Source of the DNA: Ailanthus altissimus
Lineage: Eukaryota; Streptophyta; Magnoliopsida; Sapindales; Simaroubaceae
Direction of reading: 5' to 3'
Assembly: GCA_946807835.1 (NCBI GenBank)
Contig: OX327696.1
Coordinates: 3,484,501 to 3,548,500, forward strand
Length of the DNA: 64,000 bases
Every line of letters begins with the position of its first letter. Position 1 is the first letter of the stretch. The position numbers and the translations under genes were made by a program. Shown piece by piece: positions 10,709-52,319 of this stretch. The notes under the pieces were generated by a model, which made no database searches, was not told the origin of the DNA, and saw only the letters and a list, made by a program, of their open reading frames with translations.

Positions 10709-12059
10709 CATCTCCCAACTAGTTTATTATTTGTCTCTAGCAATTCAAGCATAAATAGAATATGCAAAACTACCTGAGTATTTCAAACAAAAAGTCAGTT
10801 CAAGATCACTATTGCTATTATGATTTTTTCAATTATAACTTCAAAAAATTATGTGCATGAACTAAGCCGTAACCATCTTACCACAAATCACAATAGATAT
10901 AGGCTGGTGAATTTCTTCAAGTAAAGGCCTTAACTTCATATCCTCATAAGTGTATGGCTGTTTAAAAGGTTAAGATTTCTCTTATGGAGTTAGAAAATAA
11001 TTAAGCACTAAAAAAAAGTCAATTTTAAGGACAGACATACAAACTAACATTGATCTAAAGATAGAAAAATCAATCTTTTAGAAATCAATCATTCTTAACA
11101 TGCACCAGCTTTACGACTTCAATTATCTTGTGAGAATAATACAAATATAGCTTGGTGAGAAAACTACCTTACAAAATATTTATCTTCTAAAATTGAATGA
11201 AGACTTTATTAAACTGAATTGATTCTTCTTTTATTTGGTATTTTGCTTTCTCTTTTTTTTGAAGAATACAAGGAAGCATTACAAAATAAAAAAATATTTC
11301 TCACAAAAATATATTATACACAAATGCAACCAACGTATTCCTTAATTCAAATAATATCAATCTAAATAAAATTTAATCAATTCAAAGGATCAATGAAGGT
11401 TTGTAAGTTGTTTTCTCAACCTTTCTACTTACTCAAGAAAGATATATGAGATTAGAATATATATTTAAACATATGAATTCTCTTCGTCATATAAATTGAA
11501 TCATCCATCTTACCACAAGACTTAGCATTGTGCTCAAAAATATTTCGGAAGTCATTCTTTAGTAACCTAAATAGAAACAGTGACTCAATCTAAATAATTT
11601 TGAAATCATACCTAGGTAGAAATGTAAATTCCTTTATACAAGAATTACCAAGATTACAAACAATAAATAACAATACATGAAAAATAACAAGAAGTTAGTT
11701 AAAATGCGTTTCAAAAGTTAAAAATAAAAATCCTTACTCTCTCATTCTTAATCTAATTTGACTTAGAATGCGTCTCAAGAGTTCAAAAATGGACTCTTTA
11801 CTCTACCATTTTAATAAATAGGTATGTAGAACCCCATTATTTTTTTTTCTCTTTTTTTTGAATGCAAAATACAACTTATGTCTATTATCCTCCCTCCAAA
11901 CCATATTAAATAGTGTCCTCAATATTTAAATAGAAAGAGATAAAGTATAGGAGACATTACCTGAAACGCTAATTATTCAAAAGAAACAAACTTGAGAGAC
12001 ACTTAAGTAAATAAAAACTAAAATGATGATGCTAATAAATAAATAAAACAAAGAAAAAT
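10709..12059 (-). other. Element B 3' untranslated region and polypurine tract
   Basis: No gene. The minus-strand purine tract AGTTGGGAGATG (10709-10720) abuts the 3' LTR and would prime plus-strand DNA synthesis. The rest aligns with 21067-22442 of element A in reverse, including the conserved 'CATTGAGGACA'-type motif (degraded here near 11910-11925) and the 'GGTAAGATGGATGATTCAA' block near 11495-11515. Confidence 0.7.
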
Positions 12060-12149
12060 TTACAAACGAAGTGTTAGATTCAATTTTCGCTTGTTGTGGC
12101 CCACTGACCAATTCACCCGAGTTATTGTTGGATCAGGTTTGTAGGTAAC
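12060..12149 (-). pseudogene. LOG: Captured LOG of element B, C-terminal part
   Basis: The minus-strand frame continues exactly from 24010 across the element A insertion. It encodes 'YKPDPTITRVNWSVG' and the terminal 'NKRKLNLTLRL', with stop TAA at 12060-12062. The duplicated target GTAAC is inside the codons for Val-Thr. See 24005-24567 for the rest of the gene. Confidence 0.82.
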
Positions 12150-13712
12150 TGATGAACACATGAAAATGCATATTTGTTAAGAGATTCAGTCACCATTTAA
12201 TGTCACTAATTTTAGCATTTTCTGTATTTTTAGCTTGAAATAAAGTATTCTCCTTAAATTGTGATTAATGAATGTTATTTGGACAGGTTTAGCTAAAATA
12301 GACGTAACTCTCAATGTAGAAATTAAAATAAATACATTCTTAAACCTGGTGTAACATGACTCAATCTTACACAAATTTTATGAATAATGGAAAAGCCAAA
12401 TCCAACATTTTATGGGCCAAATATTGAGATACAATGGAATCGGGCTACAACTTCTGCCCAGCTTGAACCAACTCACGTATTTGGACAGTATCCCACAAAA
12501 TACGTACTCAATTGGTATAATTATTGAAGTTGTGAAATACTGACTTAATTATCAACAACTCTTATGTTGATGGTAAAGTTCAAATCAGCAGTTATCATGG
12601 ACCAAATTGCATTGTAAGTGGGTAAAATGGTTGTTGGTTGAAATATGATGTATCTTTGGAATTTTGCTCATATCTCATTGGATACTCATCCAATTTACAT
12701 GAACTCGGTGCCTATGGAAAGAAGAGATAAAATGATACAACTTTTATGTCGACCACAGAGGTTACATCAGTCATTTACATTATAAAAAATGTGCTGTAAG
12801 TGGATGAACGAGTTATTGGCCTAAAATTATTGAAGATTGATGTCATCCATGACATATTTCCATTCATTGCCTTTATAAGGAGACTCTTAGGACGTTTTCA
12901 ACATTAGATAATTCTCTTTTCTTTTCTTCTCATTAACATGTATTGTAATTTAGGCTAGTGTTTTTGGCAATGCTAAGAGATAAACTTTTATGTGTAGTAA
13001 ATCCACTTCGATGTTTTGATTCGTTGTCAAGAGCTATAAATATTGTAAGTTTGGTTTTGAATAAACTCTTATCTAGTTTATTTTCTATAATCCAGAGGTT
13101 ATAATTCTCATGTCTCATATATATTCAGTCATGCTTTTCTTATGTGATTTTTGTTGAATTATAATTGTTATTGGTTACATTGTTTATATGTTAATCTTTT
13201 ATTGCAATATTGTCAAATTGATATATTGTCAATCTTGGATAACATGTAAAGGCAATAAATGTTTGATATTCAAGTTGATCTTTTACTGCAATATTGTCAA
13301 AATGATACATTGTCTATCTTAGATAACTTGTATAAATAAACATGATTTGTGTTAATATTTGCAAAAGAGTTTAGTCATATCCAATGTATGTGTTATCAAA
13401 TGTGCTATATTTTACATATCTTCCGATTGATTGTTTAGATGTAAAACTATCAATTGAGTTATAAACACTGAATCAAAGTGTAGAGTAGATTTATAAAGCA
13501 TAATTGTGATTCTCGAAGCCTTGTTTAAATTATCATAAGACATTTCCTTCAAATCATAGACAATTCTATATCATCCACTTAAATCAATTAATTTTATCCT
13601 TTGCTACCTCTTTAATATTTTACTTTACCAACCTATTTTGCCAAACGCTTCCTCGTGGGATCGACATCTCAATCTATACTGCGATAGCCACGTTATATTT
13701 TTACCGTAAACC
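12150..13712 (+). repeat. Element A 5' LTR
   Basis: Begins TGATGAACACA and ends CCGTAAACC; the 3' LTR ends GCGTAAACA, so the terminal CA has mutated here. A TATA-like TTTATAAG lies at 12872-12879, aligned with TATATAAG at 23164-23171 in the 3' LTR, giving a probable transcription start about 30 bp downstream. A repeated block near 13190-13330 has twice 'TTGTCAA..TGATAYATTGTC'. Confidence 0.95.
12872..12879 (+). promoter_or_regulatory. Probable TATA box of element A 5' LTR
   Basis: TTTATAAG in the 5' LTR corresponds to TATATAAG in the 3' LTR (23164) and to the minus-strand CCTATATAAG in elements B (9981) and C (46034; 60630). Conservation at the same LTR position in every copy supports a core promoter. 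This copy carries an A-to-T change in the box. Confidence 0.6.
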
Positions 13713-13717
13713 AAATT

Positions 13718-13731
13718 TGGCGCCGTTGCCG
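13718..13731 (+). promoter_or_regulatory. Primer-binding site, tRNA-Asp type
   Basis: TGGCGCCGTTGCCG begins five bases after the LTR. It is complementary to the 3' end of plant tRNA-Asp, the usual minus-strand primer of Athila elements. After the 14th base it departs from the expected match (GAAGAGG in place of GGGA). Confidence 0.9.
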
Positions 13732-13846
13732 AAGAGGCACACTAAGCGAAAGTCGGTTGCGATTATAAATACTAAAGTGGTAACTTTGTACATTTTTTTC
13801 TTTGTAAAATATTAGTTTTATTTTCTTGTAATTCATCTTATTGTTT

Positions 13847-14413
13847 ATGGTTGGTTCAACCACCTAATTTATTTTATTTTTTTAGTTAATTTGTTATAAT
13901 TTATTTTGTTTTAATGGCTGGTTTTACTGCCTAAATTTGTTCACTTTCTTTTATTTATTTATTGTATTTTATTTCTTTAGTTAATTTGTTGTATATTTTT
14001 TTGTGGCTGGTTCTACTGCCTAACTTAGTTTATTTATTTATTTTATTGTACTTTTTTTATTTATTGTACTTTATTTTCATTTTATTTTACTTATTTATTG
14101 CACTTTATTTTCTTTAGTTAATATGTTGTATTTTCTTTTTATTTTAATGGCCGGTTCTACCGCCTAACCTTTTATTTATTTACTTATTGTACCTTTTTTT
14201 ATTGCACTTTTTTTTTATTTTTTCTTTGTCTTTTATTTATTTGTTGTACTTTGTATTTTATTTTTCTTTATTTATTGTACTTTCTTTTCTTTTATTTACT
14301 TATTGTATTTCCTTTTTATTATTTATTTATTGTACTTTTTTATCGTTCTTTACAGTTTATTATCTTTTGTTCATTTATTGTATTTATATTTCATGGTTGG
14401 TCTTATCACTTAA
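13847..14413 (+). other. Array of five 7-codon mini-ORFs in the element A leader
   Basis: Five 21-nt units lie at 13847, 13914, 14003, 14147 and 14393. Each reads start, five codons, TAA: M-V-G-S-T-T, M-A-G-F-T-A, (GTG)-A-G-S-T-A, M-A-G-S-T-A and M-V-G-L-I-T. The same five-unit array is in elements B and C. Units sit in T-rich spacers and can each form a short hairpin (GGC..GGT with ACC..GCC). They lie in the leader upstream of gag, so they may act as upstream ORFs controlling gag translation, which is inference. The alternative is an RNA hairpin signal that happens to read as ORFs. Confidence 0.72.
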
Positions 14414-14503
14414 CTCATTTCTATTTCTTGTTGTATTTTATTCAACTTCTTAATTTTTCTTAAGCATTTCCTTCCTTTAAAAAAAAAAAAATTGTTAGGA
14501 TGT

Positions 14504-15630
14504 ATGCATCGACTTAGAGACAAACGAGAAAGATTTGTGAGAGAACTAGAACTAGAACTAGAACTACCCCCACAATTTGTAAGTGATGAGAATTCACCTT
14601 CTAGTTCATCTTGTAATTCTAACACAATGAGCTAACATAAAGAAAACCCCATTAGAACTCTAAAAGATTACTTGCATCCTACTCGCATAGCCACGCCATC
14701 ATGCATTATATTTCCACTTAACACACCATATTCGGATTTTAATCCTGGAATGATACAACTTCTGCCCACTTTTCATGGTCTAGATAGTGAAAACTTTTAT
14801 GTACATGTTAGGAAATTTGAAGAGGTAATTGCCACCTTCCATAGCCAACCTGAAGCCATAGACACTGTTAGGCTTAAATTTTTCACTTTTTCTTTGAAAG
14901 ACAAAGCAAAGAGTTGGCCATACTCTTTGAGGTTGAGGTTTATAGGAACTTGGGCAGAAATGACCCAAGCATTTTTTAATAAATACTTCCCATAGCACAA
15001 AACTAATGGCCTGAAAAGACAAATTTCTTTCTTCTCCCAAAAAGACAGTGAAACCTTATATCAAGCATGGGAAAGGTTTAAAGAGTTGCTAAATCTGTGC
15101 CCTTACCATGGGTATGAAAATTGGCGCTTGGTTAGTTATTTCTATGAGGGACTCACAATTAGAGAGCGCCAATTTGTTGAGATGATGTGTAATGGGGAGT
15201 TCCTTCACAAAGATCCTGAGAAGCCATAGAATTCCTTAATGACTTAGCCAAAAAATGCCATACATGGACTGGACCAAGCATTGCTGAAAGCACAAATAGG
15301 TTATGACCCAATGAAGTTTTTCATCTTAGGGAAGAGAATAACCTCAAAGCCCAATTAGATGTCTTAACTAGGGAGTTAGAGGCATTGAAAACCAAAGATA
15401 GAAAGGTCACCCACACGGTTGCTAGAGTTGAGTCACACGATGTCTGTTTTGTCTGTGGAGGAGCAGAACACTTAGCTCATGATTTCCCCACTTATAGTGA
15501 GATGAGAGGGATATATGAGGAACAATGTAATACCCTAGGAATGTACAAGAAGCCTTATTCACCATACTCTGAAACATATAATCCTAGCTGGAGAAATCAC
15601 CTAAATTTCAGTTGGAAATCTGACCAATAA
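14504..15630 (+). pseudogene. Element A gag (Retrotrans_gag) with broken zinc knuckle
   Basis: ATG at 14504 opens 'MHRLRDKRERFVREL', with an acidic-hydrophobic repeat ELELELEL. A stop at 14633 precedes 'LHPTRIATPSCIIFP' and the capsid region 'QLLPTFHGLDSENFYVHVRKFEEV' (from 14757). A second stop (14993) and a frameshift near 15228 follow. A CCHC zinc knuckle near 15445-15490 reads C-x2-C-x4-H-x4-F, so its last Cys is lost. The protein would form the particle core. Elements B and C carry the same gag with different damage. Confidence 0.85.
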
Positions 15631-15738
15631 ACCAACAGCCAGTGGAAACAAGGACAACAAGCACCCAAGTCTTATGTTGCACCTTAATATAATTCACGAC
15701 CAACTAGGAGTTTTTTAGAGGACACATTACAAGCATTT

Positions 15739-16206
15739 ATGGAGGCACAGAGTAAGACTAATAAAAAATTTGAAACAATTCTTGCACAGGTGGTAGACGA
15801 AAACAAAGAAATCAAGAGTCAAATCACAAAGTTGACCAGTGCCTTAACTGTACAAGAGCGAGGTAAGTTTCCATCTCAACCTCAATCCAATCCGAAAGGA
15901 CAATTCATGGCACAAGCTTCTACTTCTGATGTTCAAAATCTCAAAGAAGTCAATGCCATTACTACTCGAAGTGGTAAGATTGTAAGTGAGCCTACTTCTG
16001 AAATTCACACATCTACGAGTAGTAAAGACACCCCTCTTGAAAAAGAGGCCACAGTGGAAAAAGAACCCGAAAATAAATTTTCAATCCCAGTGCCTTTTCT
16101 TCAAGCTCTTCGACTGGTTGGAAAAAATTCAAAAATTCAAGGTGAGATTTTAGAACATTTGAAACAAGTTAAGATTAATCTTCCCTTGTTGCATTTGATT
16201 AAGTAG
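15739..16206 (+). pseudogene. Element A gag-pol linker
   Basis: 155 codons, hydrophilic, with a predicted coiled-coil start ('FETILAQVVDENKEIKSQI') and 'NAITTRSGK', a motif found just before protease in Athila-type polyproteins. It is in the same frame as 15385-15630 and as protease/RT from 16393, which shows that gag-pol was one reading frame. The frame ends at a TAG where a Gln codon is likely (IK-Q-VPTYAKVMKDL), so this is a damaged segment, not a separate gene. Confidence 0.8.
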
Positions 16207-17901
16207 GTTCCAACTTATGCTAAAGTCATGAAAGATTTATGCACTATCAAAAGAAAACACCATATGAAGAAAACTATATTGGCAGAACAGGTAAGTAAAG
16301 TGATTGAACAAAAGACACCACCCAAGTATAAAGACCCAGGATGTCCCACAATCTCCTGCCAAATTGGGACACATGAGTTTGGTTAAGCTTTATTGGACTT
16401 AGGAGCAAGTGTAAATTTAATGCCTTATTCTATTTACTTGCAATTGGGACTTGGAAAGATTAAACCAACATCTGTAGTCCTACAATTAATTGACCGATCA
16501 ATCAAGAAACTACGGAAAATAGTAGAAGATGTTTTGTTGCAAATTGATAAATCTTACTACCCTGTTGATTTTCTTGTTTTAGATACTCATTCTGTTGTTA
16601 ACATGGAGTCAAAAATTCCTCTTATTTTGGGGAAACCTTTTCTAGCCACTGCTAACGCTCTTATTAATTACAGAAATGGTCTAATAAAATTATCTTTTGG
16701 GAATATGACTCTTGAGGTGAACATTTTCAATATTGGCAAACAACCACGAGAAGAAGATGAGTGCTATCATTTATATATGATAGACACACTTGTAGCAGAG
16801 GAACCTTATAAAAATCATGGCTATGATTCTTTGAAAAACCTTCTCAATTTTGATTTTGAAGAATTGTATTATCCTGATGTAACAAATGATGTGTTTAGTG
16901 TTTTTGACTCACAGGATAAAGGGACTCGATTTTGGCAGCTACGCTTTGAAGAGTTGCCACGAGAGAGGGAGAGACCAAAACCATCAAACCTCAAGACACC
17001 ACAAGTTGAGCTTTCTCCACTGCCCAAAGGTTTGAAACACGCATTCTTGGGACTAGGTGATGCCTTTCCAATCATCATTTCTTCTGAACTTAGTGCTGAA
17101 CAAAAGGAAAAATTGATAAAATTATTAAAAGAACATAAGTCTGCACTAGGTTGGGCCATAGCTAATATTAAGGGTATTTCTCTATTGATATGCTCCCATA
17201 GAATTCATTTAAAGGAAGGTGCTCAACCTCGTAGGGACTCACAAAGAAGACTTAACCCAACAATGAAAGAAATAGTGAAGAAAGAGGTCTTGAAACTATT
17301 AAATGCATGTATAATCTACCCAATTTCTAATAGTCAATGGGTAAGTCCAACTCAAGTAGTTCATAAGAAATCTGGGGTTACTGTTGTTGAAAATGAGAAT
17401 GGGATACCTGTTCTAACTAGGGTAGTAAGTGGTTGGAGAATGTGTATTGATTATAGAAAGTTAAACATAGCCACTAGGAAAGACTATTTTCCATTGCCTT
17501 TTATCCACCAAATTTTAGAACGTGTAGTTGGACATCTTTTTTATTGCTTTCTTGATGGGTATTCAGAATATTACCAGATTGATATAGCTATAGAAGATCA
17601 AGAAAAAACCACTTTTACATGCCCTTTTGGTACTTATGCTTTTCGTAGAATGCCATTTGGATTATGTAATGCACCAGCTACTTTTCAGCGTTGTATGTTG
17701 AGTATTTTCTCTGATATGGTTGAAAAATGCATGGAAGTCTTTATGGATGATTTGACTGTTTTTGGTAATTCTTTTGATTTATGCCTACTTAACTTGAAAT
17801 TTGTTTTGAGTAGGTGTGAAGAAAAAAGGACTTATGTTAAATTGGGAGAAATGTCATTTCATGGTATCTTCAGGAATCGTTTTGGGACACATTGTATCTG
17901 A
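16207..17901 (+). pseudogene. Element A protease and reverse transcriptase
   Basis: After a TAA at 16384-16386 the frame is open to 17901. Aspartic protease: 'LDLGASVNLMPYS' with catalytic Asp at 16396-16398, then 'PVDFLVLDT' and 'IPLILGKPFLATA'. RT: 'WRMCIDYRKLNIATRKDYFPLPF' (from 17431), 'YCFLDGYSEYYQI', 'FRRMPFGLCNAPATFQR', and the catalytic FMDD at 17740-17751. A frameshift near 17820 spoils 'LNWEKCHFMV'. In active relatives this polyprotein matures Gag and copies the RNA. The protease and RT cores are better preserved here than in B or C. Confidence 0.92.
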
Positions 17902-17915
17902 AAGAGGGATAAAGG

Positions 17916-19411
17916 TTGACAAGGAAAAAAAATGAATTAATCTCTAAATTATCTACACCTAAAATGAAATTTGATCTAACCATCAAAGACAAGAAAGGCG
18001 TTGAAAATGTTATTGCTGATCATCTATCCCGCCTTAAGTTCACTGACTCTACTGATTTGCCACCAATTCGAGATGAGTTTCCTGATGAGCATCTTTTTGC
18101 TATAAGCCAAATACCTTGGTATGCACATATAGTAAATTATTTGGTTTGTGGTGAACTTCCATCTGACTGGAGTGAACAAGATAAGCATATGTTCTTGGTT
18201 GAGGTACGTAATTTTTATTGGGATGATCCATATTTTTTCAAATACTGTCCTGACCAAATCATGAGACGTTGCATTCCTGAAAGTGAAGTTTCTAGTGTCT
18301 TAAATTTTTGCCATAGTGTTGCTTGTGGTGGCCAATTTTCTATGAAGAAGACAGCTGTGAAAATTTTACAGTATGGTCTTTACTGGCCTACGTTTTTCAA
18401 AGACACTAATAATTTTTGTCGTTTCTGTGAAAGATGTCGAAAGTTAGGTGCTTTATCTCGAAGAAATATGATGCCTCTTAACCCTATTCTTGTTATCGAG
18501 ATATTTGACTGTTGGGGTATCGATTTTATGGGTTCTTTTTCCTCATCTTTTGATTACCTTTACATCTTTTTAGCTGTTGACTATGTATCAAAATGGGTGA
18601 AGGCTGTAGCTTGTCGTACTAATGATAATACAACTGTGGTAAAATTCTTAAAAGAAAACGTATTATCTAGGTATGGTACGCCACATGTCATCATTAGTGA
18701 CCAAGGAACACATTTTTGTAATCGTTCTTTTGAAGCTTTGATGTGCAGGTATGGTGTTCTTCACAAATTTTTCACTGTATACCATCCACAGACAAATGGA
18801 CAAGCCGAGCTAGCAAATAGAGAGGTTAAACAGATTTTAAAAAAGACGGTTAACTCGAATCGCAAAGATTGGTCTCTACGCCTTTCTAATGCATTATGGG
18901 CATATCGCACTGCATACAAAACCATCTTAGAATGTCTTCATACCGGCTTGTTTATGAGAAAGCTTGTCATTTACCTGTTGAGCTAGAGCATAAAGCTAAT
19001 TGGGCTGTTAAAGCCCTTAACTTTGATTCGAATGCTCCAGGTCTCCAGAGAAAGTTACAATTGTCAGAAATAAAAGAGCTACAAAATGACGCATATGACA
19101 ACTCCAGAATTTACAAAGCTAAAATGAGAGTAGCTTATGATAAACAGATCTCAAGGAAACACTTTGAGCCAAATCAACGGGTCAATCTTTATGATTCTCG
19201 ATTGCATTTATACCCTAGAAAGTTGAGGTCTTGATGGACTGGTCTATTTATAGTAAGGCATGTTTTTCCTAATAGTGCTGTTGAAATAGAGGACCCTATT
19301 AATGGACGAACTTTCAAAGTGAATGGATAGCGGCTAAAAAGCTATGTGGAAAAGGTAAACGACTCTATGTACCTAGGCGAGATCCCTCTTGTGGATCCTA
19401 TCTATCATGCT
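17916..19411 (+). pseudogene. Element A integrase with RNase H deleted
   Basis: Starts with the RT thumb end 'ELISKLSTPK', joined directly to 'FDLTIKDKKGVENVIADHLSRL'. Elements B and C have the RNase H domain between these points, so about 0.5 kb is deleted. Integrase zinc finger: 'CHSVACGGQFSMKKTAVK..YWPTF' with the second His changed to Gln, and 'CRFCERC'. Catalytic core: Asp 18522, Asp 18699, Glu 18807, giving an exact D-D35E spacing. A frameshift near 18930 moves the rest to another frame ('YRLVYEKACHLPVELEHKA'). The end 'IPLVDPIYHA' stops at 19411. Confidence 0.9.
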
Positions 19412-19419
19412 TGATCAGG

Positions 19420-19620
19420 TTCAATCTATTTGTACCATATTTTATATTTTGTCTATATTTTATCTTTTGACTTTTTATTTTTGCTTTTATTTTCTTTCAC
19501 ATTTTATTTTACTTTATTTTCTTCTTTTTATTTTTTCTTCCCGGTCAAGTGGCGGATACGGTACTCCGTGACTATTAAAGTCGGTTTCTCAGTTCTCTAA
19601 AAACTATCCCTCAAACTGTA
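19420..19620 (+). promoter_or_regulatory. Pyrimidine tract and conserved hairpin motif before ORF3
   Basis: A run of about 120 T/C-rich bases (19430-19540) is followed by 'CGGTCAAGTGGCGGATACGG' (from 19542) and 'TACTCCGTGACTATTAAAGTC'. ACGG and CCGT in it can pair around TACT. Both elements B (25310-25480, reverse) and C (50790-50930, reverse) keep it. A pyrimidine tract ending in AG just before an ORF that lacks its own promoter would suit a splice acceptor for a subgenomic mRNA; that is inference. Confidence 0.5.
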
Positions 19621-19646
19621 CATTCATCTCTTTTCTTTCTTTCAAA

Positions 19647-20195
19647 ATGGATCACATTCTTGTCAACCTTAAAAAACATTTTCCGTCATTGTCTCAAAAT
19701 GCTCTACTTAAGATTTACAAAGCACAGTGTGAAAGACTAAGGCTATTAATGTTGGGTAATATCCCTATGGATCTTCGTTGGTTAATTGAAGCCAAGGTTT
19801 GGTTATCTGGTGAGTTTATAAATGATTTTGTTTCTCATATGCCTGGTCTTGGAAGAAGTTCTTATGCCAAAAGGCAACGAGCAAAGAGGTTACAAGTCTG
19901 TCATAAATGTGCTCGATGGAATTATAACTGGAGTTGTCATTCTTTAGGATTTGCCTCTAGAAATCGAGAAGACAAAATTCAGTTCATTAAGGATGGACTG
20001 AGTAAGGAGTCTTTGGATGATATCCTATTGACTCTTGAGACGCATCCCTATGGGCTCGTGCAACATGAACATCTCAATTTATGGAACAAATTCAAAAATG
20101 AACATCAACGGTATAGTCTCAAGAATCTGACTCTAAAAGACCCTGTTTGCCAATTTATAAGAAAATTGGATGAGAAGCTTATCCCCGACCTATAG
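19647..20195 (+). CDS. Element A ORF3, unknown protein of 182 aa
   Basis: Open from ATG 19647, following the polypyrimidine/hairpin region. I do not recognise the family. It is basic and largely hydrophilic, with no signal peptide or membrane segment that I can see, so it does not look like an envelope protein. It has a possible metal site C-x2-C-x8-C-H ('VCHKCARWNYNWSCHS') and a C-terminal half rich in 'SKESLDDILLTL' and 'LWNKFKNEHQRY'. In element C the frame runs on past this stop (TGG there, TAG here) to end in 'EEDVSHNHNYL', and A has the same extension after its stop (to 20264). The ancestral protein was therefore about 208 aa. It occupies the env-like position of Athila. Confidence 0.7.
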   Translation: MDHILVNLKKHFPSLSQNALLKIYKAQCERLRLLMLGNIPMDLRWLIEAKVWLSGEFINDFVSHMPGLGRSSYAKRQRAKRLQVCHKCARWNYNWSCHSLGFASRNREDKIQFIKDGLSKESLDDILLTLETHPYGLVQHEHLNLWNKFKNEHQRYSLKNLTLKDPVCQFIRKLDEKLIPDL

Positions 20196-20264
20196 AGGGC
20201 GTTTAAGCCGTTACTGAACGTAAAATCAGAGGAAGATGTGAGCCACAATCACAATTACTTGTAA

Positions 20265-20510
20265 ATATATATGTTTTAATTTCAAACTCTATTTTATGAA
20301 TAGTAGGGCTACTCATGTAGATGTCTTAAATTCAAATCTTTTTGTTCAATAATGCATGTGGGTCATTACGTTTAAATTTTTGTGTTTTATTTTTAACTCT
20401 CTTTTGACAAACTGTCGAGTTACAATAATCATTGTTATCATTTGGTACTCTATAAATACAACACCTCATTTTTTTTATTTTCATATATTGAGATAAAGGT
20501 GAGTGTAAAT
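20265..20510 (+). other. Spacer between ORF3 and captured LOG
   Basis: AT-rich, no gene. It ends in 'TCATATATTGAGATAAAGGTGAG', just before the LOG coding start. It is present in element C (split there by a solo LTR) and in shortened form in B. I see no promoter that I would defend. Confidence 0.6.
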
Positions 20511-21066
20511 ATAGAGGAAACCCCAGTTCAACAATTTTGAAATATATGTGTATTTTATGAATCTAGTCTTAGGGAGAGTAAAGTGTTTGTAGAAGCAGCA
20601 AATAATCTAGGAAAAGCATTAGCTGCAAGAAAATTTTATTTGATTTATAGAGAGGGTATCCTTGGGTTAATGGGGTGTGTGTCAACACTTGCACATTTAG
20701 GAGGAAGTCAAGTTTTAGGAATTATTTCTACAGCTTTAGCCATGGAAAACCTGATCGGAAAAACAATAAGGGAAGAATTACGAGTCTCATCTATGCATGA
20801 ACGTATAGCTAGAATGCTTTGCAATGCAGACGCTTTTATTGCTTTACCAGGTGGTTTTGGTACCTTGGAAGAAATTTTTCAAATTGTCTCTTGGGCTTAA
20901 CTGAATATCCACCGAAAACCCATAGATCTTGGTTTTTGCTACTGAGGCGGATGAATTGATTAACAAATTACATGCAGTTACCTACGAACCTGACCCAGCA
21001 ATAACTCAGATTGATTGGTCAGTGGGCCTTAACAAGCGAAAATTGCATCTGACACTTCGTTTGTAA
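20511..21066 (+). pseudogene. LOG: Captured LOG (cytokinin riboside 5'-monophosphate phosphoribohydrolase), element A
   Basis: LOG enzymes cleave cytokinin nucleotides to free active cytokinin. Here an open frame of 120 codons (20541-20900) reads 'ICVF' (the LOG N-terminus is ICVFCGS), 'LAARKFYLIYREGILGLMG' (LOG: LVYGGGS.GLMG), 'SMHERIARM' with the conserved catalytic Arg, and 'ADAFIALPGGFGTLEE', the full PGGxGTxxE nucleotide-binding motif. Damage: ATA at the start where element B has ATG, TGA at 20538, TAA at 20898 where C keeps CAA, and a deletion of about 0.1 kb that removes 'GLFNVN...RQILI'. The tail 'DELINKL' to 'NKRKLHLTLRL' ends at 21066. No introns are present. Not functional as it stands. 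Confidence 0.88.
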
Positions 21067-22428
21067 ATTTTTCTTTGTTTTATTTATTTATCAGCATCAT
21101 CATTTTAGTTTATATTTGCTTAAGTGTCTCTCAGGTTTGTTTCTTTCAAATAATTGGTATTTTAGGTAATGTCTCCTATACTTTATCTCTTTCTATTTAA
21201 ACATTGAGGACAATGTTTCATCTGGTTTAGAGGAAGATAGTAGACACAAGTCATACTTTATTTTTTAAAAAATTTTTTTTTTGTGGTTCGATATTTGATT
21301 AAAATGGTAGAGTAAAGAGTTTATTCTTGAACTCTTGAGACGCATTCTAGGTCAAGTTAGAATAGCAGAGTAAGGAGTTTTAGTTCCAACTTTTGAAACG
21401 CATTTTAACTAACTTTTTGTTGTTTTGTTTTATGTTTCATGTATTGTTGCTTATTGCTTGTAGTCTTGGTAATTTTTGTATAAAGGAATTTGCTTTTCTG
21501 CCTAGGTATGATTTCAAAATTGTTTAGGCTGAGTCCTATTTCTATTTAGGTTACTAAAGAATGACTTCCAAAATATTTTTGAGCACAATGCTAAGCTTTG
21601 TGGTAAGATGGATGATTCAATTTATATAGCCAGGAGAATTTCCATGTTTAAGTATATATTTTTCTAATCTCATATATATTTTATAAGTAAGTGAAAAGGT
21701 TGAGAAAATAACTTATGAACCTTCATTGATCCTTTGAATTAGTTAATTTTTGTTTAGATTGATATTATTTGAATTAAGGGATAAGTTGGTTGCATTTGTG
21801 TATAATATAATTTGGTGAGAAACCTTTGTAATGCTTCCTAGTATTCTTCAAAAATACCAAAAAAAAAAAAAAAGAGAAGCAAAATACCAAAAAACAAAAA
21901 TACATAAAAAAAAGAGAGAGAAGAATCAACTCAGTTTAATAAAGTCTTCATCCAATTTTAGAAGACAAATATTTTGTAAAGCAGTTTTCTCACCAAGTTA
22001 TATTTGTATTATTCTCACAAGCCAATTGAAATTCTAAAGCTGGCGTATGATATGAATAATTGATTTTTAAACAAATAATTTTTCTATCTTTGGATCAATG
22101 TTACTTTATATGTCTGTCCTTAAAATTAACTTTTTCTTATGTACTTAACTATTTTCCAACTCCATAAGAGAAGTCCTAACCTTTTAAACAGTCATACACC
22201 TATGAGGATACGGAGTTGAGGCTTTTACTTGGAGAAATTCTCAAGGCTATATCTATTGTGGTTTGTGATCAGATGGTAATGGCTTAGTTAAGACACACAT
22301 AAATTTTGGAAGTTGTAATTGAAAAAACTATGATAGCAACAGTGATCTTGAACTGACGTTTTGTTTGAAATGCTTAGGTAGTTTTGCATATTCTATTTAC
22401 GCTTGAATTGCTAGAGACTAGCAATAAG
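21067..22428 (+). other. Element A 3' untranslated region
   Basis: About 1.36 kb without a gene. It includes 'AAACATTGAGGACAATGTTT' (21198-21217), a motif repeatedly seen in the 3' UTR of Athila-type elements, short A-rich runs (21857-21945), and blocks matched in B and C in reverse. The frame at 21831-22037 is low-complexity Lys-rich and is not a gene. Confidence 0.7.
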
Positions 22429-22442
22429 CTGGTTGGGGGCTA
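22429..22442 (+). promoter_or_regulatory. Polypurine tract of element A
   Basis: GCTGGTTGGGGGCTA directly abuts the 3' LTR start (TGATGAAC at 22443). The G-run is the expected RNase H-resistant primer for plus-strand DNA synthesis. The reverse-strand equivalents in B (10709-10720) and C (46766-46778) are weaker. Confidence 0.75.
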
Positions 22443-24004
22443 TGATGAACACATGAAAATGCATATTTGTTAAGAGATTCAGTCACCATTTAATGTCATT
22501 AATTTTAGTATTTTCTGTATTTTTAGCTTGAAATAAAGTGTTCTCCTTAAATTGTGATTAATGAATGTTATTTGGATAGGTTTAGGTAAAATGGACATAA
22601 CTATCAATGTAGAAATCAAAATAAATAAATTCTTGAACCTAGTGTAACATGACTCAATCTTACACAAATTTAAAAAATAGTGAAAAAGCCAAATCCAACA
22701 TGTTATGGGCCAAAATTTGAGATACAATAGAATCGGGCTACAACTTCTGTCCAGCTTGACCCAACTCACGTATTTGGACGGTATCTCACAAAATACGCAC
22801 TCAATTGGTATAATTCTTGAAGCTGTGAGATACTGACTTAAGTATCAACAACTTTTATGTTGATGGTAAAGTCCAAATCAGCAGTTATCATGGACCAAAT
22901 TGCATTGCAAGTAGGTAAAATGGTTGTTGGCTAAAATCTGATGTATCTTTGGAATTTTGCTCATATCTCATTGGATACTCATCCAATTTACATGAACTCG
23001 GTGCCTATGAAAGAAGAGATAAAATGATACAACTTTTATGTCAACCATAGAGGTTACATCAGTCATTTACATTAAAAAAAATGTGCTGCAAGTGGATGAA
23101 CGAGTTATTGGCCTAAAATTATTGAAGATTGATGTCATCCATGACATATTTCCATTCATTGCCTATATAAGGGGACTCTTATGATGTTTTCAACATTAGA
23201 TAATTCTCTTTTATTTTTTTCTCATTAACATGTATTGTAATTTAGGCTAGAGTTTTTGCCAATGCTAAGAGATGAACTTTTATGTGTAATAAACCCACTT
23301 CGATGCTTGATTCGTTGTCAAGAGCTACAAATATTGTAAGTTTGGTTTTGAATAAACTCTTATCTAGTTTATTTTCTATAATCTAGAGGTTATAATGCTC
23401 ATGTCTCATATATGTTCAATCATGCTTTTCTTATGTGATTCTTGTTGAATTATAATTGTTATTAGTTACATTGTTTTATATGTTAATCTCTTACTGCAAT
23501 ATTGTCAAATTGATATATTGTCGATCTTAGATAACATGTAAGGGCAATAAATGTTTGATATTCAAGTTGATCTTTTACTGTAATATTTTCAAAATGATAC
23601 ATTGTCGATCTTAGATAACTTGTATAAATAAACATGATTGATGTTAATATTTGCAAAAGAGTTTAGTCATATCCAATGTATGTGTTATCAAATGTGCTAT
23701 ATTTTACATATCTTCCGATTGATTGTTTAGATGTAAAACTGTCAATTGAGTTATAAACACTGAATCAAAGTGTAGAGTAGATTTATAAAGCATAATTGTG
23801 ATTCTCGAAGCCTTGTTTGAATTATCATAAGACATTTCCTTCAAATCATAGACAATTCTATCTCATCTACTTAAATCAATTAATTTTATCCTTTTCTACC
23901 TCTTCAATATTTTACTTTACCAACCTATTTTGTCAAGAGCTTCCTCATGGGATCGACATCTCAATCAATACTATGATAGCCTCGTTATATTTTTAGCGTA
24001 AACA
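22443..24004 (+). repeat. Element A 3' LTR, 1562 bp
   Basis: TGATGAACACA to GCGTAAACA, colinear with 12150-13712, and followed at once by the target duplication GTAAC. It has a better TATA box than the 5' copy (TATATAAG, 23164-23171). Confidence 0.95.
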
Positions 24005-24567
24005 GTAACTGCCTATAATTTATCAATCAATTCATCCTCATTGGTAGCAGAAATGAGGATCTGTCGCTCCAAATGTGAAATAAAATTATGTTCCATAACT
24101 TGATCAAGAAAACAGAGTAAGCAATCAAAATAGATATTAACATTAAACAAACCTATGAATTTTTGATGGATATTTAGCTTGGTCCAAGAGGCAATTTAAA
24201 AAATTTCTTCCAAGATACCAAAATTATTTGGTAAAGCAATAAAAGTTTTTACATTGTAAAACATTCTAACTACACGTTCATGCATAGATGCGACTCAAAA
24301 TTCTTCCCCTATTGTTTTCTTAGTCAGGTTTTCCACGGCTAAAGCTATATGAATAATACCTCAAACTTGACTTCCTCCTAAATGTGTAACTGTTAACACA
24401 CACCATATTAAACCAAGGTTACCCTCTCCATAAATCAAATAGATTTTTCTTGCAGTTAATACTTTTTCTAGATTATTTGCTGCCTCTACAAATACTTTAT
24501 TTTTCCCAGGACTAAATCCACAAAATACACATATATTTCAGAATTATCAAACTGAGGTTTCCACCAT
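24005..24567 (-). pseudogene. LOG: Captured LOG of element B, N-terminal and central parts, most complete copy
   Basis: On the minus strand an ATG at 24565-24567 starts 'MVETSV', then three stops, then 'NICVFCGFSPGKNKVFVEAA', 'LIYGEGNLGL', 'SMHERVVRM', 'FIALPNNFGILEE' (PGGxGTxxE damaged to PNNFGILEE), 'KLNIHQKFIGLFNVNIYFD' and 'DQVMEHNFISHLERQILISA'. With 12060-12149 it makes 216 codons including stop, with no net frameshift but seven in-frame stops. That length fits plant LOG proteins of about 215 aa. Plant LOG genes have several introns, yet this copy has none, so it derives from spliced mRNA. Element A interrupts it at the duplicated GTAAC. Confidence 0.9.
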
Positions 24568-24744
24568 ATCTATACTCAACTTTATCTGAATATAAAAGAT
24601 TTAAATTTAAGACATCTATATGAGAAGACATACTATTCATAAAATAAAATAAGTTTGAAATTAAAACACATGTATTTATAGGTAGTTGTGATTGTAGCTC
24701 ACATCTTCCTCTAGTTTTACGTCCAGAAATGGCTTAAACGCAAT

Positions 24745-25253
24745 CTATGGGTTGGGGATAGGCTTCTTATTCAATTTTTTTATAAATTGACAAACATGGT
24801 CTTTTAGTGTCAGAATCCCGAGACGATACTGTTGATGTTCATTTTTGAATTTATTCCATAAATCAAGAGTCAATAAGATATCATCCAAAGACTCCTTACT
24901 CAGTTCATCCTTAATGAACTGAATTTTATCTTCTCGATCTCTAGATCTAAATTCTAAAGAATCATAACTTCGGTTACAATTTCATCGAGCACATTTATGA
25001 CATACTTGTAACCATTTTTCTTCTCGCTTTTTGGCATAAGAGCTTCTTTCAAGAGCAGGTATAAAAAAATAAAATCATTTACAGACTCACCAGATACTTG
25101 AACTTTGGCTTTGATTAACCAACGAATATCTGTAGGGATATTCCTAAATATTAATAGCTTTAGTATTTTACATTGTACTTTATAAATCTTAAGTAGTGCA
25201 TTTTAAGGCAATGGAGGAAAGTATTTTTTAAGATTACCCAGAATGCAATCTAT
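24745..25253 (-). pseudogene. Element B ORF3, broken
   Basis: Homolog of 19647-20195 on the minus strand. The start codon is ATA in place of ATG (25251-25253). 'VCHKCAR' and 'SKESLDDILLTL' are kept; internal stops and short deletions are present. It ends at TAG 24745-24747, the same Trp-to-stop site as in element A, and the downstream 'EEDVS.NHNYL' is also retained. The shared stop suggests A and B share a more recent ancestor than either does with C. Confidence 0.75.
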
Positions 25254-25309
25254 TTTGAAAGAAAGAAAAGAGATGAATGTACGATTTAAGGGATAATTTT
25301 TAGAGAACT

Positions 25310-25480
25310 GAGAAACTGACTTTAATAGTCACGGAGTATCGTATTCGCCACTTGATCAGAAAATAAAATCACAATGAAAAAAAAAGAAAAAAAAGAAAAA
25401 AAAAGAAAGTAAAATACGAAAGAGAATAAAAGATAAAATAAAGAGTTAAAAGATAAAAATAAACATATAAAATATAATAT
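25310..25480 (-). promoter_or_regulatory. Element B pyrimidine tract and hairpin motif
   Basis: Minus-strand counterpart of 19420-19620: a T-rich tract (A-rich on plus, 25370-25470), then the 'CAAGTGGCGAATACGATACT' motif near 25330-25350. Confidence 0.5.
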
Positions 25481-25509
25481 AGATAGATTGAACCTGATTA
25501 AGCATGATA

Positions 25510-26780
25510 GACAAGATCCACAAGAGGGATCTTATCTAGGTACATAGAATGGTCTACCTTTTAGACATACATTTTCAGCCGCTGTCTATTCACTTTAAAA
25601 TTTCGCCCATTAGTGGGCTCTTCAATTTCGATAGCACAATTAGAAAAATCTTGTCTTACCATAAATGGACCAGTCCACCGAGATCTCAACTTTTCAGAGT
25701 GTAAATGCAATCGAGAATCATAAAGATAATCCTATTGATTTGGTTCGAAGTGTTTCTTTGATATCTGTTTGTCATGAGCTACTTTTATTTTAACTTTAGA
25801 AATCCTGGAGTTGTCATATGTATCATTTGTAGCTCTTTTATTTCTGACAATTGTAACTTTCTCTGAAGACCTACATCACTCAAATCAAAGTTAAGGGCTT
25901 TGATAGCCCAATAAGCTTTATGCTCTAGCTCAATAAATAAATGACAAGTTTTCAAAGACAAGCCAGTATGGAGACATTCCTAAGATGGTTTTGTATACAG
26001 TGCCATATGCCCATAATGCATTATAAAAGCGTAGAGACCAATCTTTGCGATTCGGGTTAACCGTCTTTTCTAATATTTGTTTAACCTCTCTATTTACTAG
26101 CTTGGCTTGTCCATTTAATTTGTGGATGGTATGCAGTGGAAACTTTATAAAAAATACCATACCTACGCATCAAAACTTCAAAAGAACGATGTGTTCCTTG
26201 GTCACTAATGATGACACGTGGCGTACCATACCTAGATAACACATTTTTTTTTAAAAGAATTTTACCACAGTTGTGTTATCATTAGTATGATAAGGTACAA
26301 CCTCTACCCATTTTGATACATAGTCAACAGTTAGAAGGATGCAAAAGTAGCCAAAAGATGAGGGAAAATGACCCATAAAATTGATACCCTAACAATCAAA
26401 TATCTCAATAACAATAAGAGGGTTAAAAGGCATCATATGTCTTCGAGATACAGTACCTAACTTTTGACATCTTTCGTAAAATTGACAAAATTATTAGTGT
26501 CTTTGGACAAAGTGAGCCAATAAAGACAACACTATAAAGTTTTCAGACACTAGAAATTTTCTTTTCAGGAATACAACGTCTCATAATTTGGTCAAGACAA
26601 TATTTGAAAAGATATGGATCATCCCAATAAAAATTACGTACCTCTACCAAGAACTTACGCTTATCTTGTGCACTCCAGTTAGATGAAAGTTCACCACAAA
26701 CCAAATAATTTACGATATATGCGTACCAAGGTATTTGGCTTATAGTGAAAAGATATTCATTAGGGAAATCATCTCGAATG
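25510..26780 (-). pseudogene. Element B integrase
   Basis: The minus strand reads 'RNFYWDDPYLFKYCLDQIMRRCIPE', then fragments of the zinc finger and core ('IDFMGHFPSSF'), and 'NGQAKLVNREVKQILEKTV' at about 26100, where the catalytic Glu of the DDE triad is Lys. The C-terminal end near 25510 matches 'IPLVDPIYHA'. Several frames and stops. Confidence 0.82.
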
Positions 26781-26799
26781 TGTAGGACATCAGTGGAGT

Positions 26800-27250
26800 C
26801 AGTGAACTCAAGGTGGGATAAATGACCAGCAATAACATTGTCAACGCCCTTCTTGTCTTTAATGGTTAGATCAAATTTCTGCAAAAGAAAAATCCACCTA
26901 ATTAAACAGGTTTTAGCATCCTTATTAGAAAGAAGGTACTTAAGGGCCGCATGGTCAGTAAAAATAATAATAAGTGAACCAATCGAATAAGAACAAAATT
27001 TGTCTAAGAAAAAAATAACAGCTAGTAGTTCTTTTTCAGTAGTAGTGTAATTCATCTGAGCATCATTCAAAGTCCTACTAGAATAATAAACAACAAAGGG
27101 TTTTCCTCCTTTCGTTGCCCGAGAACTACTCCTACAGCATAATTACTTGCATCACACATAATTTCAAATAGGAGGTTCCAATTCGGTGATTGTATGATAA
27201 GAGCGGTGGTGAGTTTGGCAATGAATGTTCGGAATACCTACTCATACCTT
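26800..27250 (-). pseudogene. Element B RNase H
   Basis: Contains the domain that element A lacks: 'MNYTTTEKELLAVIFFLDKF' (about 27050), 'IIIFTDHAALKYLLSNKDAK' and 'WIFLLQKFDLTIKDKKGV'. The acidic residues of TEKE and TDHA are present. RNase H removes the RNA template during reverse transcription. The upstream part (27080-27250) is frameshifted. Confidence 0.85.
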
Positions 27251-27427
27251 TATGTCCATGTGAATTCATCATCTTTTAGCAGAAGGTTACACAATAGTCT
27301 AGATATAGTAAAAACTTTTTGTATAAACCTCCTATAAAAGTCAGCATGTCCAAGAAAAGATTGAACATCTTTATTGTTTTAGATATAGGTAATTTAGAGA
27401 TTCATTCAATTTTAGTATCGTCAACCT

Positions 27428-28110
27428 CTATCCCCTTTTTAGATACAATATGACCCAAAACGACCCTGAAGATACCATGAAGTAACATTTCTCCCAGTTT
27501 AGCATAAGTTCTTTTTCTTCACACCTAAACAAAACCACTTTTAAGTTAAATAAACATGAATCAAAAGTGTCACCAAAAATAGTCAAATCATCCATAAAAA
27601 CGTTCATGTATTTTTCAACCATATCAGAGAAAATACTTAGCATACAACGTTGAAAAGTAGTCGGTGCATTACATAATTCAAATAGCATTCTACGAAAAGC
27701 ATAAGTACCAAAAGGACATGTAAAATTGGGTTTTTCTTAATCTTCTACAACTATCTCAATCTGGTAATAACTTGAATACCTATCAAGAAAGCAATAAAAA
27801 GGATGTCCAGCTATATGTTCTAAAATTTGTTCGATAAAAGGCAATGAAAAATAGCATTTTCTAGTAGTTGTGTTTAGCTTTTTATAATCAATGCACATTT
27901 GCCAACTGCTCACTGCCCTAGTTGGAACAGGTACCCTATTCTCATTTTCTACAACAATAACCTCAGATTTTTTAGGCACTACTTGAGTTGGAATTACCCA
28001 TTGACTATTAAAAATTGGGTAGATTATACATGCATCTAATATTTTCAAGACTTTTTTCTTCACTATATTTTTCATTGTTAGGTTAAGTCTTTTTTGTGGA
28101 TCCCTACGGG
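27428..28110 (-). pseudogene. Element B reverse transcriptase
   Basis: Minus-strand blocks 27737-28075 ('ACIIYPIFNSQWV', 'WQMCIDYKKLNTTTRKCYF', 'HPFYCFLDRYSSYYQI') and 27428-27688 ('LCNAPTTFQRCMLSIFSD', 'VFMDDLTIFGDTFD'). FMDD is intact; FLDGYS reads FLDRYS. A stop in 'KP.FTCPFGTYAF' and a frame change divide the blocks. Confidence 0.87.
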
Positions 28111-28299
28111 GTTAAACACCTATCTCTAAATGAATTCTATCAGAGCATATCAATGGAGAAAGACCTTTAATATCCGCTATGTCCAACCTAGTGCAGACTT
28201 ATGTTCTTTTAACAATTTTATCAAAATTTTCTCTTGTTCAACACTAGGTTAAAAAGAAATGACAGTAGAAAATGTATCACCTGGTCCTAAGAATGTGTT

Positions 28300-28760
28300 T
28301 CAAACCTTTGGGTAGTGGAGAAAGATCAACTTGTGATGTCTTGAGGTTTGATGGTTTTGGTATCTCCCTCTCTCATGGCAACTCTTTAAAGTGTGGCTGC
28401 TAAAATCGAGTCTTTTTATCCTGCGAGTCAAAAATACTAAACATATCAGTTGTTTCATCAGGATAACATAATTCTTCAAAATCAAAATTAAGAAAGTTTT
28501 CCAAAGAATCACGGCCATGATTTTTATAAGATTCTTTCAATACAAGTATGTCTATCGTATATGAATGATATCATCCGTCTCCCTCCCGTGGTTGCTTGCC
28601 AATAGAGAAGATATTCACCTCAAAAGTTATATTCCCAAAAGATAATTTTATTAGACCATTTCTGCAATTAGTAAGGTGGTGTCTTTTGTTCCTAAGTCCA
28701 ACAAAGCTTGACCAAACTCATGTGTCCCAATTTGGTAGGAGATTGTGGGACATCCTGGGT
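28300..28760 (-). pseudogene. Element B protease remnant, internally deleted
   Basis: 'ALLDLG' near 28700 jumps directly to a 'NYRNGLIKLSFGN'-like segment. The central part of the protease ('VNLMPYS' to 'LGKPFLATA') is missing compared with element A, a deletion of roughly 0.25 kb. The RT-proximal linker with 'YDSLENFLNFDFEELCYPDE' follows. Confidence 0.7.
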
Positions 28761-28982
28761 CTTTATACTTTGGTGGTGTCTTTTGTTTAATCACTTCACT
28801 TACCTATTCTGCCAAAAATGCAATTTTCTTTACATAGTGTTTTCTTTTTATAGTGCATAGATCCTTGATGACTTTAGCATAAGTTGGAACCTACTTAATC
28901 AAAAGCAACAAGGGAAGATTAATCTTAACTTGTTTCAAATGTCCCCTTGAAATTTTGAATTATTTCCAACAAGTCGAAGAGC

Positions 28983-29297
28983 TTAAGAAAAAGGCACTGG
29001 GATTGAAAACTTATTTTCAGGCTCTTTTTTCACTATGTCCTTTTTTTCAAGGGGGGCATCTTTACTACTCGTAGATGTGTTAGTTGAAGAAGTAGGCTCA
29101 TTCATAATCTTACCACTTCGAGTAGTAATGACATTGACTTTTTTGAGATTTTGTTTATCAGAAGTAGAAGCTTGTGTCATGTATTGTTCTTTTAGATTTG
29201 ATTGAGGTTGAGATGAAAACTTACCTCGCTCTTGTACAGTTAAGGCACTGGTCAACTTAGTGATTTGGTTTTTGATTTCTTTATTTTCGTCTACCAC
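28983..29297 (-). pseudogene. Element B gag-pol linker
   Basis: Minus-strand counterpart of 15739-16206, with 'DENKEIKNQITKLTSALTVQ' and 'NVITTRSGK'. It extends to 'NKFSIPVPF'. Same single-frame polyprotein region as in element A. Confidence 0.78.
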
Positions 29298-29589
29298 TTG
29301 TGCAAGAATTGTTTTAAAGTTTTGATTAGTCTTACTTTGTGCCTCTATAAATGCTTGTAGTGTATCCTTTAAAGGACTCCTAGTTGGTTATATATTATAT
29401 TAAGGTCCACCATAAGACTTGGGTGCCTGTTGTTCTTGTTTCCAATGGTTGTTGGCTTGTTGGTCAGATTTCTAACTAAGTTTGGGTGGTTTCTCTAGCT
29501 AGGATTACAGGTTTCAGAGTAGGGTGAATTAGGTTTCTTATACATCCTTAGGGCATTACATTATTCCTCATATATTCTTCTCATCTCAC

Positions 29590-30475: not shown

Positions 30476-30664
30476 ATGAACTAGATGGTGAATTCTCTTC
30501 CCTTACAAATTGTGGTGGTGGTTCTAGTTCTACTTCTCTCTTAAATCTTTTTCGTTTGTCTCTAAGTCGATACATCCATTTTAATAATTTTTTTTTTACT
30601 CTTTTTTAACTGAAGGAAATTCTCAAGGAAAAATTAAGAAATGAACAAAAGAAAAAAAAAAGAA

Positions 30665-31186: not shown

Positions 31187-31315
31187 GAACAATGAAATAT
31201 ATTAGAACAAAGGAAATAAATTTAAAAACTAAAATTTTACAAAAAAAAAGTAAATGTACAAAGTTACCGCTTTAGTATTGATAAATGCAAACTACTTTCG
31301 CTTAGTGTGACTCCC

Positions 31316-31329
31316 CAGCAACGGTGCTA
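31316..31329 (-). promoter_or_regulatory. Element B primer-binding site, degraded
   Basis: The minus strand reads TAGCACCGTTGCTG next to the LTR end, against TGGCGCCGTTGCCG in element A. All three differences are G-to-A or C-to-T. Confidence 0.75.
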
Positions 31330-31334
31330 AATTT

Positions 31335-52300: not shown

Positions 52301-52319
52301 TCATCTCGAATGAGTGCAA

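Follow-up and report, generated by a model that had tools for sequence, protein, structure and literature searches.

When an LTR retrotransposon carries a captured host gene, the gene is commonly regarded as a passenger. Among plants, the sections of PMC9289625 that were accessible report YgdH (LOG-family) domains in Gypsy LTR-retrotransposon consensus sequences of Citrus sinensis and C. clementina and, with a laxer filter, in Gypsy elements of Populus trichocarpa, and they cite Steinbauerova et al. (2011, Genetica 139:1543). The presence of LOG in plant Gypsy elements is already in print, and the case that we describe here from Ailanthus altissimus extends it. The term YgdH does not occur in the accessible parts of PMC7264820 or PMC11963269, nor do cytokinin or lonely occur in those of the 2026 review PMC13317346, and no account of the selection, promoter or function of plant-retroelement LOG cargos was found in the literature covered, which lay largely outside subscription journals.

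The window, by which we mean the whole 64-kb stretch of DNA that was analysed (contig OX327696.1, positions 3,484,501 to 3,548,500), holds three decayed Athila-like Ty3/gypsy copies, A, B and C, all of which belong to a family that we call W. In each copy a LOG sequence recognised by PF03641 sits between ORF3 and the 3' LTR, which agrees with the original prediction, made from the sequence alone, that three separate insertions carry LOG at the same site. The coordinates proposed there for the LOG of A (20511-21066) and of B (24005-24567 plus 12060-12149) stand, whereas the LOG of C starts at 47964 rather than 47971. The window LOGs were delimited, from start-codon position to stop, by alignment to a full-length genomic copy, L036, and the features are as follows.

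12150..24004, forward strand: element A (family W), with LTRs at 12150-13711 and 22443-24004, from self-comparison of the window
14636..15226, forward strand: gag pieces of A (PF03732), one of the two pieces above cut-off
16387..18983, forward strand: pol of A as two open stretches, one (16387-17898) with RT and a weak protease match, the other (17913-18983) with integrase
19647..20195, forward strand: cysteine-rich ORF3 of A, with a match to PF05515 Viral_NABP
20448..20460, forward strand: TATA box of the LOG cassette of A, CTCTATAAATACA, the same motif as in families W, I and II
20511..21066, forward strand: LOG-like pseudogene of A (PF03641 1.7e-18; alignment to L036)
9141..32118, reverse strand: element B (family W), 3' LTR at 9141-10708 and 5' LTR at about 31349-32118; contains A
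24005..24567, reverse strand: LOG-like gene of B, 5' part, with 7 stops; cut by the insertion of A
12060..12149, reverse strand: LOG-like gene of B, 3' part with the stop codon (alignment to L036)
45263..61357, reverse strand: element C (family W), LTRs at 45263-46765 and 59800-61357; contains a family II solo LTR
47964..48368, reverse strand: LOG-like gene of C, broken, with its 3' end lost
32516..35231, forward strand: family II solo LTR, target duplication GATCA
54199..57051, reverse strand: family II solo LTR within element C, target duplication ATTCC

The LTR pair of A is 94.4% identical, and a perfect 5-bp target duplication, GTAAC, borders the element at 12145-12149 and 24005-24009, which indicates that A jumped into the LOG of B. 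The LTRs of B are 85% identical over 794 alignable columns, its 5' LTR being the aligned part and shorter than the other LTRs; no target duplication was found at the outer ends of B (TATAG vs GGATC), so these ends are not proven. For C, the LTR pair is 81.9% identical and the flanks, TGATT and TGACT, agree at four of five bases. The K2P distances between LTRs are 0.057 for A, 0.130 for B and 0.148 for C. A, B and C are separate insertions and not local duplicates. Relative to L036, the LOG of A has ATA at the start codon, two premature stops and a 90-nt deletion, while that of C has deletions of 1, 2, 4 and 10 nt and lacks the last third.

Other features of the window were also observed. All three elements contain an A/T-rich, loosely repetitive stretch between the 5' LTR and gag (13841-14462, 30635-31249 and 59112-59728). 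A further inverted repeat pair, about 74% identical, lies at 541-3379 and 40689-43287; its ORF at 1577-1966 gives weak Pol_BBD and zinc-knuckle matches, below cut-off, and the pair is perhaps another retroelement family.

The assignment of the host element to the Athila type, also proposed originally, was supported, in the sense of an Athila-like element, by the order of RT, one RNase H and integrase with an extra ORF, ORF3, after integrase. Profile searches of two genomic copies (L056 and L057) gave the domain order RVT_1, RT_RNaseH, H2C2, rve, and no second RNase H (aRH) was found in the pieces scanned. The protease profile in the window copy is weak (16.3 bits vs a cut-off of 24.3), and PF03078 was not found in the element pieces scanned. 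A candidate primer site, TGGCGCCGTTGCC, which would be that of tRNA-Asp, was seen after the 5' LTR in five copies, four of W and one of I. The sequence CATTGAGGACAATGT, presumably the one familiar from other Athila elements, lies 3' of the W and I LOGs and has a weaker counterpart in family II. ORF3 itself matches PF05515 Viral_NABP in the window (19647-20195), in L034 (607-1149) and in L002 (436-981) with 29.4, 35.2 and 32.3 bits (cut-off 23), and PF01623 Carla_C4 exceeds its cut-off in the two W copies among these. Both are profiles of carlavirus cysteine-rich nucleic-acid binding proteins, so that ORF3 appears as a plant-virus-like protein within an Athila-like element, and a constrained one (I-W dN/dS about 0.2).

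The residues encoded at 20541-20897 in copy A, which the original prediction had assigned to LOG, match PF03641 at 1.7e-18 (67.5 bits; cut-off 27) and the Arabidopsis LOG structure At2g37210 at 1.1e-28, values that rule out a chance match. Four longer copies reach 135-139 bits against the same PF03641 cut-off, three element LOGs reach 172-192 bits with TIGR00730 (cut-off 96), and L036 matches At2g37210 (PDB 2a33) at 2.4e-66 and At5g11950 (1ydh) at 5.8e-59. Judged by profile, motif and catalytic residues, the element proteins are members of the LOG family. A LOG query against IMG/VR found no relative; one IMG/VR contig, L001, which matched an ORF3 query over 29 residues, was judged unrelated from its ORFs.

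We surveyed active-site residues in 93 element stretches that were found by a PGGxGTxxE search and therefore contain this motif by construction. Residue numbers and roles were transferred by motif from the accessible part of PMC4979012, which gives Met96, His97, Lys100, Glu125 and Trp129 as prenyl-site residues and Arg99 and Glu122 as catalytic, with Lys at 100 and Glu at 125 in the LOGs compared there. The catalytic Arg99 is present in 92 of the 93 stretches, the remaining one having a stop, and Trp129 in 91, while Glu121, Glu122, Met96 and His97 are found in nearly all. Two of the five prenyl-site residues differ from the cytokinin-specific LOG set: residue 100 is Ile in 60 stretches, Met in 33 and Lys in none, while at residue 125 there is Gln in 89 stretches, a stop in three and Glu in one. 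A canonical host LOG of the same genome, L060, keeps both Lys100 and Glu125. With the NCBIfam cytokinin equivalog NF058542, element LOGs score 118, 124.8 and 128.5 bits, below its cut-off of 300, a threshold that known plant LOGs may or may not reach.

A search of the genome with PF03641 gave stop-free matches above cut-off at 150 of 150 scored places (the best 150 of 4943 candidates), and an At2g37210-stretch query gave stop-free matches at 147 of 150 (150 of 4767 candidates scored); among the matches listed, frames are mostly 238, 250 or 253 codons long, with some shorter. Every locus read belongs to an element except the host gene L060 and the fragment L061. With stop-free matches at all 150 places scored with PF03641, element copies may make LOG genes look more numerous in genomes of this kind than they are. 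The element loci fall into three groups that carry an intronless, full-length LOG frame: W and I, both Athila-like, and II, a seemingly non-autonomous LTR family. Family W, that of the window, has a LOG of 648 nt with ORF3 upstream, and ten W copies (L074-L083) are 96.4-98.0% identical to L036 over about 3.2 kb. Family I is its sister, alike in layout and about 70-77% identical to W at the nucleotide level. In family II, the LTRs measure about 2.7 kb and the internal part about 3.7 kb; the family carries the same LOG cassette and, upstream of LOG, a further ORF (YYPTVKDYLTFTLSLKG...; L004 81-743, L007 1-744, L010 5434-6039) for which no Pfam match was found. We call family II non-autonomous because two upstream pieces of about 6 kb (L010 and L011) contain no ORF longer than 206 codons and the four ORFs tested gave no Pfam match.

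Because a search by LOG similarity puts the best-preserved LOGs at the top of its list, we sampled copies through neighbouring DNA. A 501-bp piece of the W 3' region yielded 21 copies (ranks 2-22 of 40 listed, with rank 1, the query's own copy L036, left out), all of which carry LOG, 13 of them full and intact and 8 broken. A 471-bp piece upstream of the II cassette yielded 24 copies (ranks 1-24 of 40 listed, rank 2 being the query's own), all with LOG, 13 intact and 11 broken; without the query's own copy, the figures are 23 of 23 with LOG and 12 intact. Both samples favour young copies, and both query pieces were taken from LOG-bearing copies. Local duplication as the source of the shared LOG was ruled out by these samples. 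The genome scan thus did not turn up W members lacking the segment among those picked by 3' UTR, and the idea of an ancestral capture whose cargo moved with the element gains support from the shared site in separate insertions and from the copies found genome-wide.

Several arrangements were noted among these copies. Family II copies can lie head to tail at about 6.5 kb, as at C4:32284190, 32290655 and 32297120 (6,465 bp twice), C5:4492104/4498654 and C27:1871214/1877794, a spacing that equals the combined length of an LTR and an internal part and would fit arrays with shared LTRs. Pairs of W copies lie at about 10.85 kb (e.g., C1:28385028/28395881). Two W copies, L096 and L099, lack the same LOG stretch, positions 417-553, which suggests that a deleted LOG variant may itself have transposed.

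LTR comparison shows that some copies in the genome are recent. Eight LTR pairs were compared, and two (one W and one I) that did not align were dropped. Among copies with a full LOG frame, LTR identity is 97.86, 99.87 and 99.93% in W, 99.65% in I, and 99.79% and, from a separate comparison, 100% (over 953 bp) in II; a W copy on C21 has LTRs 99.32% identical, yet its LOG is broken (frame of 189 codons). Commonly used plant rates are 0.65-1.3e-8 per site per year. At these rates, the two youngest W copies are 0.03-0.1 million years old and window copy A is 2.2-4.4 million years old. The LOGs of the window are old relics, and the surprise lies outside it, where several recent, abundant families appear to keep LOG working.

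The LOG frame is preceded by a conserved TATA box. In the 60 copies in which the LOG start was reached, TATAAATA lies 60 nt before the start codon in W (23 of 23 copies), 73 nt before it in I (20 of 21) and 67-70 nt before it in II (15 of 16), and the 13-mer is exact in 22 W, 18 I and 14 II copies; in element A, the motif likewise begins 60 nt upstream of the LOG start position. Families I and II align from -76/-71 to -7 upstream of LOG and again 3' of the stop (46-170 and 9-131 nt after it, respectively), which suggests that LOG probably passed between element families. The LOGs of I and II are closer to each other than either is to that of W, although it is with W that I has its entire layout in common, so that an I-like element is the probable source of the family II cassette. 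Apart from the TATA box, BLAST did not align W with I between ORF3 and LOG. When the upstream 320 nt of these two families are compared, the top match falls near ORF3 and not at the TATA box. At the TATA box, W against II gives a score of 32, and 100 shuffles reached up to 33. AATAAA occurs 93 nt (I) and 55 nt (II) 3' of the stop in the copies read, and none was found within 300 nt of the stop in W. Just before the LOG ATG, the splice-donor-like GGTGAG is present in nearly all aligned W, I and II copies (20499-20504 in the window), one aligned W copy having TGTGAG instead; after the stop, W and I have CTCAGGTTTG / TTGCAGGTTT, and CAGGT occurs there in both families.

Three introns, placed by eye, interrupt the host LOG gene L060, at HVLG|IIPK, KE|VMGETV and ALPG|GFGT. 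The element LOGs have no introns at these sites, which indicates that a spliced RNA was the source of the captured copy. The TATA box of a gene is normally absent from its mRNA, so the box would have been gained later or come from an upstream start site. Queries with At2g37210 stretches yielded L060 as the one canonical intron-bearing LOG, an exon-like fragment with a stop (L061) and otherwise only elements among the loci read (12 + 12); no host parent gene of the element LOGs was found among them. An N-terminal stretch of another plant LOG clade matched at least 150 places at 82-85% identity, and all ten loci read from that query are family W.

We also compared substitutions among the element LOGs. 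Between natural full-frame copies, Nei-Gojobori dN/dS is 0.11-0.12 for I-W, with synonymous sites near saturation, 0.30-0.31 for I-II and 0.21-0.25 for II-W. Neutral simulations, which covered the I-W and I-II divergences (200 each) with mutation parameters that we chose, gave dN/dS of 0.46-1.35 and 0.47-1.65 and gained 8.3 and 5.4 stops on average, respectively; full LOG frames of I, II and W persist after dS of 0.5-2. For I-W, pN is 0.19 in LOG, 0.150 in RT, 0.165 in RH-INT and about 0.155 in ORF3 (dN/dS about 0.2), and pS is 0.695, 0.741, 0.786 and 0.50, respectively. These substitution patterns indicate that LOG is under purifying selection between families and is about as constrained as pol. 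The pS of LOG exceeds that of ORF3, though not that of pol, so LOG need not share the history of ORF3.

Within families, the signal comes from II. In the II sample obtained by neighbouring DNA, variants present in at least two copies comprise 15 synonymous and 13 non-synonymous changes (p 0.0005 vs neutral), and singletons 12 and 49 (p 0.65); II copies fetched by LOG score gave 20/4 shared and 16/48 singletons. The corresponding excess of synonymous changes among shared variants over singletons is not significant in W (p 0.49) or in I (p 0.3); W copies drawn through neighbouring DNA gave 4/7 shared and 18/37 singletons. On their own, the three window copies show no sign of constraint, whether in LOG, in pol or in ORF3. 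Their LOG differences by codon position are 21/21/11 for A-B, 16/17/9 for A-C and 24/25/10 for B-C, fewer at the third position (p 0.15, 0.26 and 0.03), a direction that runs counter to constraint. Post-insertion decay dominates these copies, so the codon test on them probably has low power.

Taken together, the account that we consider probable is that LOG was captured, was kept functional by selection within the elements and later moved as a cassette into family II. An Athila-like lineage would have taken up a spliced plant LOG between ORF3 and the 3' LTR before W and I split; the site is the same and the neighbours are homologous in both families, and from this we infer a single capture. 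The cassette resembles a small gene, with a TATA box that precedes the ATG by 60-73 nt, a frame of 215-217 codons and, in I and II, AATAAA downstream, signals that are present as sequence and from which transcription would proceed. Selection would have kept the protein working while the elements multiplied, to judge from dN/dS between families and from shared variants within II, and the cassette with its flanks would later have moved from an I-like element to II, as the flanks that the two have in common and the greater similarity of their LOGs suggest. In a cell that transcribes the element, the product is most likely a LOG-type nucleotide phosphoribohydrolase. If this enzyme released cytokinin base or cleared a related nucleotide, the cell would be pushed towards division or meristem identity, which would in turn favour inheritance of new copies, and copies such as A, B and C would decay after insertion. 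More tentatively, and as a possibility that we would not call probable, LOG would be transcribed from a promoter of its own within the element, distinct from the LTR, would change the cell state so that new copies are inherited, and would be useful enough for a non-autonomous family to acquire it by cassette swap; the change of state may consist in division or meristem identity driven by cytokinin, or in the loss of a nucleotide signal that the enzyme removes.

We weighed this account against other readings of the same data. That a LOG cDNA was caught once and simply rides along, with intactness reflecting only the youth of the copies, would fit the three broken LOGs of the window, the neutral look of the singletons and the absence of significant within-family constraint in W and I. 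We disfavour this reading as distinctly unlikely, since dN/dS between families is 0.11-0.31, with the I-W and I-II values outside all 200 neutral simulations for each, since full frames survive divergences over which simulated frames collect several stops, and since shared variants in the II sample drawn by neighbouring DNA are enriched for synonymous changes. The low values between families might instead mostly record host evolution if W, I and II had each taken a host LOG, as the greater synonymous divergence of LOG than of the neighbouring ORF3 between I and W, and the lack of a host parent gene among the loci read, would allow. Such independent captures are unlikely, given that in W and I LOG lies at the same site, with a homologous ORF3 and a homologous 3' region beside it, that I and II share flanks on both sides of it, and that the block common to I and II includes a TATA box normally absent from host mRNA; in addition, I-W divergence is even larger in pol than in LOG, and the signal within family II cannot be host evolution.

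Two further readings concern what the cassette does. The enzyme may cleave another nucleotide and no longer make cytokinin, acting as a counter-defence or pool-shaping protein; its substrate might, for instance, be a nucleotide that signals in plant immunity or a metabolite of the nucleotide pool. In W, I and II alike, residues 100 and 125 of the base/prenyl pocket have changed although Arg99, Glu122 and PGGxGTxxE have not, and the host LOG L060 retains Lys100 and Glu125, all of which would suit an altered substrate; the changes may, however, be inherited from a plant LOG subclade, and we regard this reading as possible but rather doubtful. Very improbable, in our judgement, is a splicing or regulatory role in which GGTGAG and CAG|GT make the LOG block a facultative intron whose sequence, and not protein, matters: the donor-like motif does precede the ATG in nearly all aligned copies of three families, and the acceptor-like sequence follows the stop in W and I, but the aligned II copies lack an acceptor and selection acts on codons. 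In the account that we prefer, of capture, selective maintenance and cassette transfer, the internal controls (pol, ORF3, singletons and simulations) indicate that selection kept a hormone-pathway-type enzyme inside the elements. LOG has been kept in two autonomous-looking families and in one in which no pol was detected; many copies are intact, a few of them very young, and this makes testable the question of whether plant retrotransposons manipulate cytokinin or nucleotide signals of the host cell to aid their transmission.

Comparison with known systems places these elements among several relatives. Families W and I share with the Athila clade of Ty3/gypsy, as described in the accessible part of PMC6317226, the RT-RH-INT order, an ORF after INT and the lack of a second RNase H among the pieces scanned; unlike that clade as described there, they carry LOG and an ORF3 that matches Viral_NABP. 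With the plant LOGs At2g37210 and At5g11950, the element LOGs have in common PGGxGTxxE and the catalytic Arg and Glu, but they are intronless, lie inside LTR elements and have Lys100 and Glu125 replaced. The giant Gypsy elements of Phalaenopsis that carry AlkB, an m6A demethylase (PMC9289625, accessible part), likewise hold a host-type enzyme as an extra ORF; AlkB is a different enzyme whose activity was demonstrated in vitro, whereas the Ailanthus LOG is known from sequence. Closest are the YgdH-bearing Gypsy elements of Citrus and Populus, which, as far as the accessible part of PMC9289625 describes them, share with those of Ailanthus a LOG-type domain in a plant Ty3/gypsy element, and Citrus and Ailanthus both belong to the Sapindales. 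The section on the Citrus and Populus elements, in that accessible part, names domain and species in two sentences, to which the Ailanthus elements add the position of LOG, its frames and TATA box, evidence of selection, dating, three families (one without detected pol), a probable cassette transfer and a comparison of the active site.
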